From Mycobacterium heckeshornense (lineage in GTDB: Bacteria > Actinomycetota > Actinomycetes > Mycobacteriales > Mycobacteriaceae), in the NCBI RefSeq assembly GCF_016592155.1, contig NZ_AP024237.1:4712001-4776000 (forward strand): a stretch of DNA of 64,000 nucleotides, given 5' to 3'. Each line of letters opens with the position of its first letter. Within the stretch, counting starts at the first letter, position 1. Shown piece after piece: positions 2,030 to 6,245 of this stretch. The translations under genes were made by a program, and so were the position numbers. The notes below the pieces were generated by a model that was given only the letters and a program-made list of their open reading frames with translations, did not search any database and was not told where the DNA came from.

Positions 2030-3056
2030 TTACTTGTGCGCCTCGGGTTTTCGGTCAAATTCATCGCTTGATGCTGTTGACGCGAGCGCCAGTCTTGCGG
2101 CTTGGCGGGCACAGCCCCAGGACAGCGTCACCCCGTTGCTGCCGTGGCCATAGTTATGCACGCAGCGTGCCCGGCCCAGGGGCTCGGCCTCGAGCCGCAC
2201 CGCGGGGCGGCCGGGGCGCAGGCCGGTGACGGTCTCGAGGACCTCGGCGTCGGCAAGACGCGGCTCGATCGTCAGGCATCGCTGCAGAATCCGCTCGGTC
2301 ACATCCGGGTCGGGTGTGCGGTCCCAGCGGCCCGGCACCCGGATGCCACCGCAGACCACCCGCTGGGGATGCGGAAAAAAAGCACGTCCACTCTTCGGCC
2401 TCGGTGACCTCGACGAACACCTGGTCCAACCCGGGATTACTCAGCACGACATGCTGGCCGAACATCGGTTGCAGGGTGTCGTCGCCAACGAGTTCGCGGG
2501 CGCCCAGACCGGTGCAGTTGACGACGATCGGCGCAACCTCTGCGGCCTCGGTTAACGACTCCACCGGGCGGATCTCGATCTCGCCGCCGGCGGCCGACAG
2601 CCGGTTAAGCAGGTACTCCAGGTAGCGCGGCATGTCGATCAGCGGCATGGTGGCTCGAAACCCGTGGGTGAATCCCGGCGGAAGCTGCGAGGGAGCACAG
2701 CGGCGAAGACCGGGAACCAGGTCCGCCTGCGGCGGCAGCTCGTCGACGTTCGCCAGCTCGCCCACTGCGAGCACCGGCGCCAGCCGCACCCCGGTGCCCG
2801 CTACCCTGGCTAGCTCCTGGAAATCACGCAACGACTGCGCCATCCACGCCAGCGTCTGGGAGGCCGGTTCCTGAAACGCGGGGCCCCAGAGGGCTCCCGC
2901 GACGATGGACGTGGTTTGTGCGGGCGGCTCCGCCGCCCACACCCGTACCGGCGAGCCTGCCTCAGCCAGACAGATCGCGGTGGTCAATCCGCTCACCCCG
3001 GCACCGACCACCACGAGGGGTTCCGCATTGTCGGACCGGACGGTATGTGTGCTCAC
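2030..3056 (-). pseudogene. D-amino-acid oxidase, frameshifted at an A7 run
   Basis: This is an FAD-dependent D-amino-acid oxidase (DAO/ThiO family) that would turn D-amino acids into 2-oxo acids, ammonia and peroxide. The N-terminal piece starts at GTG 3056 and has the dinucleotide-binding VVGAGVSGL motif and a long FAD-domain stretch ending in EEWTCFF. The C-terminal piece carries the flavin-site segment NYGHGSNGVTLSWG. Deleting one base from the seven-A run at 2375-2381 fuses them through FFPHPQRVVCGGIR and gives about 341 residues, the family's normal length. It is divergent from the adenylating enzyme at 3151, across about 95 bases. As with the deacetylase, an assembly indel is a real alternative to true inactivation. 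Confidence 0.85.
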
Positions 3057-3150: not shown

Positions 3151-4248
3151 GTGGCGCGTGTCGATGTGTCGTTGTTGGAGGTGCCGCGTTCAGAGCCGGT
3201 CGAGGATCCCGAAGCTTACCTTCGCGCGGCGGTCGCCTGGCACTTCAGCGAGGACACCGGGTCGCCATTTTGGTTGCGCATTGCCGCCACGCTGAACTTC
3301 GACCCGCTGACCGACATCAACACCTTCGCGGATCTGCGCTTGTTTCCCAACCTCGTCAACGAACTGCGCAGCGCGCCCGTGGAGGACCTGATTCCACGCG
3401 GGTACGGGTCGTCGCCGCCGCTGCCGCAGATCTTCGAGTCCGGCGGCACCACCGGGGCTCCCAAACGAACTGTGCAAATGCCGGATTGGATCGAACAGGT
3501 CGTCCGGTGGCAGACCGAGGACTTCACCGCCGGTGGATTCCTGCCGGGCCGCGGCTTCCTATGCCTAATGCCCAGCGGACCGCACGGGGTGGGCTACTTT
3601 TCCCGTCTGGTCTCCGCGAGGCTCGGCTCCATCTTCCACTCGATCGATCTGGATCCGCGCTGGGTTAAAAGGATTGCTGCCCGCAACGCCGCGTCCGACG
3701 TGCTGGCCTACGTCGAACACGTAATCGAGCAGGCCCGTCACGTTCTGCGTACCCAAAACGTCGCGAATCTGCACACCACTCCGCCGCTGCTCGAGGCCCT
3801 CGCCCGCGACGATCACACGGTGCACTTGGTGAACGAGAAGATCCGCTATGTGTTGCTCAGCGGCGCCCATGTCGACGCCGACACGCTGGATCTGTTTCGG
3901 GAGATCTTCCCGGATACCGCGATCACCATGGTTTTCGGCAGCACGATGATCCTCTCGCAGGCCATCACCCGCACCGGCGGCGATTGCGGCTCGTTCGTAT
4001 TCGACCCGCGCACACCGTATGTCGTGTTTTGGGTGCTGGATCCCGACACCGGCGATCACGTGCCGTATGGGCAACGCGGCCAAGTCGTGATGAATCATCT
4101 CAGCAAAGGAATGTTTATACCGAACAACCTGGAACGTGACAGCGCGGTCCGACTCCCAGGACCCCCGGGTCAGATCGGCGATTCGCTCAGCGAGGTGCAG
4201 CCGGTAACCATATTCGAGGGTCGAGACGTCATCGAGGGTGTGTACTGA
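3151..4248 (+). CDS. Short ANL-superfamily adenylating enzyme, EhpF-like
   Basis: This 365-residue protein resembles EhpF, the atypical adenylating enzyme of D-alanylgriseoluteic acid biosynthesis, and is close in size to the LuxE acyl-protein synthetases. The family activates a carboxylate as an acyl-AMP. The phosphate-binding loop SGGTTGAPK is clear. The A5 position reads VFGSTM rather than the usual YGxTE. The protein stops where a normal ligase would begin its mobile C-terminal domain, so the usual catalytic A10 lysine domain is missing. GTG 3151 is chosen because upstream in-frame sequence overlaps the divergent oxidase and is unlike the family. The next gene starts 2 bases after the stop, which suggests translational coupling. 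The substrate is unknown. No phenazine core genes are in the window. Confidence 0.75.
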   Translation: MARVDVSLLEVPRSEPVEDPEAYLRAAVAWHFSEDTGSPFWLRIAATLNFDPLTDINTFADLRLFPNLVNELRSAPVEDLIPRGYGSSPPLPQIFESGGTTGAPKRTVQMPDWIEQVVRWQTEDFTAGGFLPGRGFLCLMPSGPHGVGYFSRLVSARLGSIFHSIDLDPRWVKRIAARNAASDVLAYVEHVIEQARHVLRTQNVANLHTTPPLLEALARDDHTVHLVNEKIRYVLLSGAHVDADTLDLFREIFPDTAITMVFGSTMILSQAITRTGGDCGSFVFDPRTPYVVFWVLDPDTGDHVPYGQRGQVVMNHLSKGMFIPNNLERDSAVRLPGPPGQIGDSLSEVQPVTIFEGRDVIEGVY

Positions 4249-4250
4249 CC

Positions 4251-5657
4251 ATGACGTCAGTGGCCGGCGAATACGCAAGTCGAGCAACAGATCTGGTATA
4301 CCTAGACGCACTCGGACCGAACGGCCCGTACCGGACGCGGAACCGCCAGACCATCACCAGCACAGCCGGTGTGCCAGTTGCCGAGCTGAGTATTGCTCCA
4401 CCGCTCTATGTTTCGCGCAGCATTGGAGCACAGCGCAAAACGCAGCCGCTGCCTGTCAGGCAGCGTCGCACCGCCCTTGCTGACGCCGCCGACGCATTCC
4501 GCTGCGCCGTGATCGCCGGACTGGATTTCGACACCTATGTCGAACGTGCCAGCGCTGTTTCGGGGCTGCCGATCGCGGTGACCCGTGCCGGTGCGCACCG
4601 GGTCGCCCACGTCGTCACGTCGGCAATCGATGCCGTGCGGCCGGCATGCCCCACCGGGGCAGCACTGGACTGGCGCGAGCCCCGCATCCGTCACGGCGGC
4701 GCCGTCTGGACCCGGCGCGGCGACGTCTTCGCCGTGCACGCCTCAGGAAACGGCCCCGGCATCCACGCCTCGTGGCCCCAGGCGCTCGCGCTGGGATACC
4801 GGGTGGCGGTCCGCCCGTCGCGCCGTGAGCCGTTCACCGCGCATAGGCTCGTCCATGCCCTGCGCACCAGCGGATTTCGGCCCGAAGATGCGACGTATCT
4901 GCCGACCGAGCATGGGGGAGCCGACGAGATCATCCGGTCGGCCGACCTGGCGATGGTCTACGGCGATCAGCACGTTGTCGACAAATACGCGACCGACCCC
5001 ACGGTGTTTGTCAACGGGCCGGGTCGCAGCAAGATGTTGATCACCGCCGAGCAAGATTGGCGCGATTACCTCGACGTCGTGGTCGACTCGATCGCCAACC
5101 AGGGCGGGATGGCGTGCGTCAACACCACCGCCGTGCTCTATGAAGGCGATCCCACTGCACTGGCGGGCGCGATCGCCGATCGTTTGTCGACGATCGAACC
5201 GCTACCGACCGAGGACGAGCGGGCGCTTCTGCCCACCCGGAGCATCGACAAGGCCGGCCAACTGGCGGACTTTCTGGCGGCCAAGGCCGCTGGAACGATC
5301 CCGGTGCTCGGCGCCGACCAGGTGGTCGCCCCGCTGGGCAATGGCCGCGCCGCGTTGCGCCCCGCCGTGCACCTGATGGCCGCGCCCGATGTCGACACGC
5401 TCAACACCGAACTGCCGTTCCCGTGCGTGTGGGTGTCGCCGTGGTCGCGCCGCGACGATATGGCAGCACTGCGGCGCTCACTGGTCGTCACCGCCATCAC
5501 CAGCGACGAAGCCCTGGTCGACGAGCTGCTGGCCGAGCCGACCATCGCCAACGTTTACTGGGGCCGCCATCCCACCTCCTACGAGGCACCCGAAATCCCG
5601 CACGACGGGTTCCTGGCGGACTTTCTGATGCGCAATAAGGGTTTCATCCGCGACTGA
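4251..5657 (+). CDS. Aldehyde-dehydrogenase-superfamily protein paired with the adenylating enzyme
   Basis: This 468-residue protein has the aldehyde-dehydrogenase fold. Its predicted catalytic cysteine lies in NQGGMACVNTTAV, and a cofactor-domain stretch with VAVRPSRREPF precedes it. It lacks the textbook ELGGK motif, so it belongs to a divergent branch, as expected for acyl-reductases of the LuxC or EhpG type. Being coupled to an acyl-AMP-forming enzyme suggests that it reduces the activated acid to an aldehyde. That direction is inferred from context, not read from residues. The last 30 bases before the convergent SnoaL-like gene form a hairpin. An ordinary oxidative aldehyde dehydrogenase is the main alternative. 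Confidence 0.75.
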   Translation: MTSVAGEYASRATDLVYLDALGPNGPYRTRNRQTITSTAGVPVAELSIAPPLYVSRSIGAQRKTQPLPVRQRRTALADAADAFRCAVIAGLDFDTYVERASAVSGLPIAVTRAGAHRVAHVVTSAIDAVRPACPTGAALDWREPRIRHGGAVWTRRGDVFAVHASGNGPGIHASWPQALALGYRVAVRPSRREPFTAHRLVHALRTSGFRPEDATYLPTEHGGADEIIRSADLAMVYGDQHVVDKYATDPTVFVNGPGRSKMLITAEQDWRDYLDVVVDSIANQGGMACVNTTAVLYEGDPTALAGAIADRLSTIEPLPTEDERALLPTRSIDKAGQLADFLAAKAAGTIPVLGADQVVAPLGNGRAALRPAVHLMAAPDVDTLNTELPFPCVWVSPWSRRDDMAALRRSLVVTAITSDEALVDELLAEPTIANVYWGRHPTSYEAPEIPHDGFLADFLMRNKGFIRD

Positions 5658-5695
5658 CACGGTGCGTGCCGCCCGCTGCGGCGAGCATCACCGTG
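5658..5695. terminator. Nested hairpin between convergent genes
   Basis: CACGGTG at 5658-5664 pairs with CACCGTG at 5689-5695, and an inner GCCGC/GCGGC stem (5668-5672 with 5678-5682) sits inside. It lies immediately after the stop at 5657 and overlaps the stop of the gene on the other strand. There is no U-tract, so its function as a terminator is only suggested by position and structure. Confidence 0.45.
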
Positions 5696-6245
5696 CTACC
5701 GCCCTGGGGAGGCACGGGTCGAAATAGGCAGGGTCGCAAGTGATCGGGCGCAACCGGTCATTCATGGTGGTCGGCCCCACGTAACGTTCGAAGATGCGCC
5801 ATCCCCGATCGGTCCGGCGCAGCCGGTCCGTCATGGCGGAGTACACCCAGATCGCGGGCAGTTCATCGGGGCTCCCAACCACCTCGGCGGTGATCATGCC
5901 GGGCACGGCGTCCGGGGGCGCATAGCGCACGAGAAGGTTGTGGTAGCGAACGATGACACCCTCGCCGTCACGATCGACGATCGGATTGGTCGCCAGCCTG
6001 CTGACGCCCGGGACGCTGTATGGGTATGCCCGCTGGAAGAAGCTTCGCATTTCCGCCCGGCCCCGATTGACGCCGTGAGTGTGGTACGTGACGCTGTCCG
6101 GGAGGAAGGCCTCGACCATCGCGTCGATATCCCAGGCGTCGAAGAGCAAGTTGACACGGTTGATGAAGTCGATTGCGCTTGTCCGGTCGGCGGCATCGAC
6201 ATCGCTATCCAGGGTGATGGGCGGCAAGTCCGGCATTGACCCCAC
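5688..6245 (-). CDS. SnoaL-like / NTF2-like protein
   Basis: This 185-residue protein has the SnoaL-like cone-shaped alpha+beta fold. An N-terminal helix (AIDFINRVNLLFDAWDIDAMVEAFLPD) is followed by TYHTHG, a GRAEMRSFF segment and alternating strands, ending in RGWRIFERYVGP. Such proteins are polyketide cyclases, steroid isomerases or dehydratases, or non-catalytic binders, and the sequence does not decide between them. Start ATG 6245 is the first Met; Met4 at 6236 is an alternative. It is transcribed away from the TetR regulator, and one of two matching operators (6393-6408) lies about 150 bases upstream, so it is a probable regulator target. Confidence 0.72.
   Translation of the reverse strand: MGSMPDLPPITLDSDVDAADRTSAIDFINRVNLLFDAWDIDAMVEAFLPDSVTYHTHGVNRGRAEMRSFFQRAYPYSVPGVSRLATNPIVDRDGEGVIVRYHNLLVRYAPPDAVPGMITAEVVGSPDELPAIWVYSAMTDRLRRTDRGWRIFERYVGPTTMNDRLRPITCDPAYFDPCLPRAVAR

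Follow-up and report, generated by a model that had tools for sequence, protein, structure and literature searches.

LuxE and LuxC follow a two-protein logic of activating an acid and then reducing it, in which LuxE holds the acyl group on a cysteine of its own, and EhpF and EhpG act on phenazine dicarboxylate. The carboxylic acid reductase (CAR) of Mycobacterium and Nocardia achieves the same net reaction with one large protein, in which a carrier is joined to a reductase domain of another type. The genes ehpF and ehpG lie side by side in the phenazine operon of Proteus mirabilis, according to PMC11278526, and PMC10179220 describes GriC as forming an acyl adenylate (acyl-AMP) that GriD reduces to the aldehyde. 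Here we analyze two adjacent open reading frames, ORF1 and ORF2, in a 64,000-nucleotide stretch of Mycobacterium heckeshornense (the window: G000:C1:4712001-4776000, from a genome of 4.96 Mb). From homology and conserved residues, it is likely that the pair forms one transcription unit for an EhpF/EhpG-type two-component carboxylate reductase resembling GriC/GriD, which would act on a probably aromatic acid by direct transfer of the acyl group.

ORF1 had been predicted to be an EhpF-like adenylating enzyme of the ANL superfamily without the C-terminal domain, and both parts of this prediction held. A phmmer search against the PDB matched ORF1 to EhpF (3l2k, 3hgu/3hgv) at 281.6 bits (E 8e-83) over residues 11-365, so that the homology runs along its length, and the next matches stood at E 0.017 or worse. 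Pfam assigned ORF1 to AMP-binding alone (30 bits). In alignment A1, which combines ORF1 with 13 relatives, AMP-binding was matched in 13 of the 14 members and no other Pfam family in any; neither the C-terminal AMP-binding domain (AMP-binding_C) nor LuxE was found by Pfam in any of them. Within the predicted P-loop, S97, G98, G99, T100, G102, and P104 are present in all 14 members, and T101 and K105 in 13. Lys173, Arg334, and a terminal EGxY are also conserved, as is an ERD motif that presumably contributes to ATP binding, as in other ANL enzymes. No cysteine of ORF1 is conserved in A1, the best column holding one in 5 of the 14 members. ORF1 is 38% identical to its Pantoea relative, a plasmid-encoded protein that is the same as the solved EhpF where the two were compared by eye.

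ORF2 had been described as a divergent member of the aldehyde dehydrogenase (ALDH) superfamily with a catalytic cysteine but no ELGGK motif, a description that our data confirm. Its structure, predicted from a 96-row alignment, adopts the ALDH fold (predicted local distance difference test score, pLDDT, 94.4). All 50 rows shown per fold search were aldehyde dehydrogenases with nearly equal Z scores, so the search names the fold and not the subfamily; no LuxC or EhpG structure was among the rows shown. The catalytic cysteine of ALDH enzymes and the general-base glutamate of their ELGGK motif have well-known roles. Asn167, Cys289, and Glu387 are kept in all 96 aligned members of the ORF2 family, and the stretch equivalent to ELGGK reads NGPGRSK in ORF2 and follows the pattern GPGRxK in the family (P257, G258, and K261 in 96/96, G256 in 92, and R259 in 89). 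No glutamate occurs at columns 254-261 in any of the 96 rows.

These residues bear on the reading of ORF2 as an oxidative aldehyde dehydrogenase, with ORF1 removing or activating its acid product. That reading is consistent with the ALDH fold and with the fold-search rows, which are mostly oxidative types with some CoA-acylating ones. We nevertheless regard it as very improbable, given the missing glutamate, which contrasts with the ELGGK-type motif that a script detected in 19 of 24 loci with ALDH hits in the same genome, and given the position of ORF2 in a tree. There, ORF2 and its relatives (25 hand-chosen EhpG-family rows) group apart from 23 ALDH-family proteins of the same genome, with a support of 100 in the SH-like approximate likelihood ratio test (SH-aLRT); the tree was built with a method termed “quick”, carries SH-aLRT support alone, and draws on 24 of 27 own-genome matches, one of which, L167, was then dropped by a score cut.

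At E ≤ 0.001, ORF2 matched at least 2852 of 7999 scored proteins, a figure that may include distant aldehyde dehydrogenases. All of the 120 matches listed share at least 73% identity with ORF2, and the closest named homologue among them comes from Mycobacterium heckeshornense (98%). Identity to the Pantoea partner is 31%. Selection on both genes is apparent from ratios of nonsynonymous to synonymous substitution rates (dN/dS) of 0.10–0.30 over 12 comparisons with six relatives (0.10–0.17 for ORF1 and 0.22–0.30 for ORF2).

We surveyed the coupling of the two genes in 121 loci, reduced to 112 by removing 9 duplicates: the window, 40 further loci, and 80 from a named scan in which 571 relatives were confirmed and 80 listed; most of those listed belong to Mycobacterium sensu lato, followed by Streptomyces and other actinomycetes. 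Both genes are near full length in 99 of the 112 loci. In 94 of these 99 they share a strand and ORF2 starts no more than 30 nt from the ORF1 stop, and 52 show the 2-nt gap of the window exactly, a spacing that leans low because, of the possible start codons, the script chooses whichever is closest to the ORF1 stop. The remaining five comprise four Streptomyces loci in reversed order and one mycobacterium with the genes on opposite strands. A further seven loci are incomplete, three because they lie at contig ends and four because they are split or decayed; ORF2 was not found in another six, two of them at contig ends. In the reversed Streptomyces loci (L123-L126), ORF2 lies upstream of ORF1 and a cluster follows downstream, whose L125 member is a DUF3105 protein. 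The original prediction had staked its reductase idea on two points: homologues are usually adjacent, and ORF2 does not cluster with ordinary oxidative dehydrogenases. Both agree with what we found, and homology lends the idea good support.

Across a genus sample of 198 genomes, near-full-length ORF1 was found in 67 (E ≤ 1e-100), and ORF2 was matched in 67 as well (E ≤ 1e-30). At E ≤ 0.001, ORF1 matches rose to 88 genomes; those beyond the 67 are fragmentary or weak and probably fall on other ANL enzymes. Set side by side, the tables for the two genes show at least part of ORF2 in 66 of the 67 genomes with near-full-length ORF1: a short piece in G097, G118, and G134, a split copy in G060, and a full gene with one in-frame stop in G008, G018, G053, and G163. 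In G103, the only one without ORF2, ORF1 lies near a contig end. In a phylum sample, ORF1 was matched at E ≤ 1e-15 in 7 of 396 genomes, five of them from the window's genus. Loci with a split or decayed ORF2 beside an intact ORF1 are L024 (G060), L087 (a M. interjectum record), L093 (M. bohemicum), L117 (M. lepraemurium), and the one in G118; a second M. interjectum record, L085, has ORF2 in full. ORF1 is itself in pieces in G146 and G172, where ORF2 is not found or is a piece, respectively.

As a candidate mechanism, ORF1 would bind ATP and a carboxylic acid, more probably aromatic than aliphatic, and form the acyl-AMP. The acyl group would then pass directly from ORF1 to Cys289 of ORF2, and ORF2 would reduce the resulting thioester with a hydride from NAD(P)H and release the aldehyde. 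ANL enzymes use their C-terminal domain for thioester formation; because ORF1 lacks both this domain and a conserved cysteine, it probably makes no thioester with coenzyme A (CoA) and does not carry the acyl group covalently. That ORF2 has no general-base glutamate is in keeping with a reductase, in which hydrolysis of the acyl-enzyme has to be avoided. Alternatively, ORF1 might serve another acceptor (CoA, an amine, or a carrier protein), with ORF2 acting as an acyl-CoA reductase or separately. The occurrence of ORF1 relatives without ORF2 and the name of the LuxC Pfam family, acyl-CoA reductase, speak for this alternative, but the absent thioester-forming domain and the near-constant coupling in loci with both genes make it unlikely.

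The genetic surroundings of the pair on plasmids point in part to aromatic substrates. We opened nine plasmid regions, for which the gene table is incomplete, and five contain phz-type, DAHP synthase, PabB, or isochorismate synthase genes. The pair lies in the same order among phz-type genes in the Pantoea phz operon, an Escherichia coli plasmid, and a Burkholderia plasmid; it adjoins DAHP synthase and PabB in Streptomyces goshikiensis; and DAHP synthase, isochorismate synthase, and a short-chain dehydrogenase/reductase (SDR) lie near it in Streptomyces NBC_00998. In S. angustmyceticus, an ORF1 homologue stands by menaquinone-type genes, with no ALDH in the incomplete gene table. On a plasmid of the haloarchaeon Halalkalicoccus (L213), genes for a sodium:solute symporter, an IclR regulator, and an SDR accompany an ORF2 homologue, which might indicate a setting of catabolism or uptake; the “hypothetical protein” before this homologue is probably an ORF1 homologue, since the organism stands in the ORF1 plasmid tally.

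The aromatic plasmid regions also weigh against a LuxE/LuxC-like fatty-acid reductase, in which ORF1 would activate a long-chain fatty acid and ORF2 would yield a fatty aldehyde. Mycobacteria are rich in fatty acids, and the hidden Markov model search for LuxC proposed in the original prediction was positive for 57 of the 96 ORF2 family members, although not for ORF2 of the window. Such a role nonetheless appears improbable, as ORF1 and its relatives show no LuxE match, ORF1 lacks the conserved cysteine expected of LuxE, and its closest solved relative is EhpF.

Several observations run counter to the EhpF/EhpG-type reading. ORF2 of the window scores just 29.3 bits to Aldedh in Pfam, which gives it no LuxC match, and NCBIfam gives it no match. 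ORF2 has decayed in some species in which ORF1 is intact. At E ≤ 1e-10, ORF1 matched 28 plasmid records and ORF2 18, so some ORF1 relatives stand alone at this limit. The two genes of Streptomyces NBC_00998 lie on opposite strands with ∼2 kb between them. For three Streptomyces plasmid loci that bear the name “arylcarboxylate reductase”, that of S. angustmyceticus among them, the incomplete gene table gives no ALDH nearby; loci of this name are 32–34% identical to ORF1. In the actinomycete loci L127, L132, L135, and L137, whose ORF1 homologues are about 50–53% identical, ORF2 was not found within ∼17 kb, perhaps reflecting a different use of the EhpF-like enzyme: L132 lies beside CoA-transferase III, HpcH aldolase, and PrpD-like genes, all three of which recur in L127, and one or two in L135 and L137. 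As for an aromatic substrate, ketoacyl synthases, AMP ligases, and FAD and P450 proteins were among 20 chosen neighbor proteins from 11 actinomycete loci, and no chorismate-pathway enzyme was; the mycobacterial neighbors scanned likewise showed no aromatic pathway beside the pair. Of the nine plasmid regions, five thus offer an aromatic context, which the scanned actinomycete loci did not show. No activity data were found for mycobacterial members.

Within Mycobacterium, the surroundings of the pair vary. We clustered the neighborhoods of 41 loci, 40 from the genus and one from outside, using thresholds of our own setting, and found at least seven settings, each common to two or more loci. The 20 mycobacterial neighbor proteins scanned are mostly products of unrelated genes, including Nramp, CobW, SSB, CtaG, polyprenyl synthase, amidase, and sigma and anti-sigma factors. 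The sole relevant-looking neighbor is an SDR whose gene lies upstream of the pair, with the same orientation, in 7 of the 41 loci; this SDR may carry the aldehyde on to the alcohol. Two pair-bearing loci have a CtaG/CopD–SSB setting, in which the pair sits in a 3.1-kb interval between these genes. Among 30 CtaG loci without the pair, SSB lies 142–1218 bp downstream in 21 and is missing from the available stretch in nine; in G041, G060, G067, and G090, SSB follows close behind CtaG and the pair is located elsewhere. Such pair-free sites, some in genomes with the pair elsewhere, show that it is placed differently within the genus. The CtaG/CopD-like gene of the window's own genome (G000:C1:1758182-1760157) was matched in two pieces, which raises the possibility of indel errors in this assembly.

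The pair is free-standing in Mycobacterium, at several chromosomal sites. PhzA/B, the sole phz family searched, was absent from all 16 pair-bearing mycobacterial genomes examined and was recovered from both plasmid records used as positive controls. With the pair standing free at several sites, its substrate would come from general metabolism or from outside. More tentatively, mycobacteria may have adopted a reductase from antibiotic pathways and spread it as a two-gene cassette standing on its own, for the reduction of an aromatic acid that no neighboring pathway makes, for example one from the environment or a competitor, to a detoxified or bioactive aldehyde or alcohol. This would represent a use of EhpF/EhpG outside biosynthetic clusters, a scenario that we consider possible rather than probable.

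The layout of the locus (Table 1) favors an independent unit: with the oxidase-like gene divergent from the pair and the SnoaL gene convergent to it, the pair is most likely a unit of its own. A promoter scan found no promoter-like site; terminator-like sites numbered four where 1.6 would be expected, and none of them is informatively placed. The GTG start of ORF1 is preferred over a longer in-frame alternative opening at 2905 because the first methionine column is conserved across A1 (≥90% of the 14 sequences). The exact start of ORF2 is less sure, as some homologues have 454 residues and residues 1-12 were modelled without confidence.

Table 1. Coordinates of the gene pair, its motifs, and the flanking genes, numbered from the first base of the window.
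Feature	Position	Strand	Remark
ORF1, EhpF-like truncated ANL (adenylating) enzyme	3151..4248	+	365 aa, GTG start
P-loop (A3) SGGTTGAPK, ORF1 residues 97-105	3439..3465	+	Conservation in A1
ERD motif, ORF1 residues 328-330, near C-terminal end	4132..4140	+	14/14 A1 members
ORF2, EhpG-like ALDH-superfamily protein, putative reductase	4251..5657	+	468 aa, ATG start
GPGRSK, ORF2 residues 256-261, at the ELGGK place	5016..5033	+	96-member alignment
Catalytic Cys289 codon of ORF2	5115..5117	+	Cys in 96/96 aligned family members
D-amino-acid oxidase-like gene	2154-3056	-	Divergent to pair
SnoaL gene	5688-6245	-	Convergent to pair

The proposal that the pair works in a local pathway with the D-amino-acid oxidase, the SnoaL protein, and a TetR regulator was not borne out, as in most other species the pair is found without these genes beside it. 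Besides the window, the relatives L023 and L024 show this gene order, and at our clustering thresholds these three are the only ones of the 41 neighborhoods with the oxidase and TetR families by the pair; SnoaL recurs in L047 alone of the other 38. A SnoaL gene is also present in three sampled genomes without an ORF1 match (G071, G094, and G117). Considering also the orientation of the flanking genes and the frame-shifted oxidase, we give such a pathway almost no credence. The oxidase-like gene (2060-3056, minus strand) is frame-shifted in that residues 1-227 and 226-332 of its L023 relative match separate frames, a sign of gene breakage or of a sequencing error. At the window's edge, positions 24-1244 encode the C-terminal part of an Rv0768-like aldehyde dehydrogenase whose gene begins before the window (G000:4711826).

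If our reading is correct, a split carboxylate reductase independent of CoA and carriers is widespread in Mycobacterium (about one third of the genus sample) and coexists with the well-known CAR in one genome. The notion that the pair stands in place of CAR does not apply here, as the window's genome also encodes CAR at 3164158-3167637 (2065 bits). The label “phenazine antibiotic biosynthesis protein”, which some database entries give to mycobacterial ORF1 homologues, would then be misleading, and small split reductases would have practical value for aldehyde production. In literature searches, from which most subscription journals were out of reach, none of the titles and abstract openings listed dealt with the mycobacterial pair. 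The system is nevertheless not undescribed, as originally suggested: database entries exist, and with EhpF/EhpG and GriC/GriD the pair type is already known; what makes the pair of interest is that it stands free in mycobacteria.

Among known systems, the pair differs from an ordinary NAD(P)-dependent aldehyde dehydrogenase in that ORF2 lacks the ELGGK glutamate, while sharing the ALDH fold and catalytic cysteine, and from CAR in comprising two separate ORFs instead of a single adenylation–carrier–reductase polypeptide. Its link to LuxE/LuxC is seen at the family level, in the LuxC matches of 57 of 96 ORF2 family members, and not in ORF2 of the window; ORF1, unlike LuxE, has neither a LuxE match nor a conserved cysteine. 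GriC/GriD of the grixazone pathway in Streptomyces griseus, likened here by the description in PMC10179220, similarly combine an adenylating protein with a distinct reductase that yields the aldehyde, the substrate being an aryl acid. With EhpF/EhpG, from the Pantoea phenazine operon for D-alanylgriseoluteic acid, both proteins are homologous, the ANL enzyme is truncated, and gene order and coupling are the same; unlike in that operon, no phenazine genes were seen around the mycobacterial pair.

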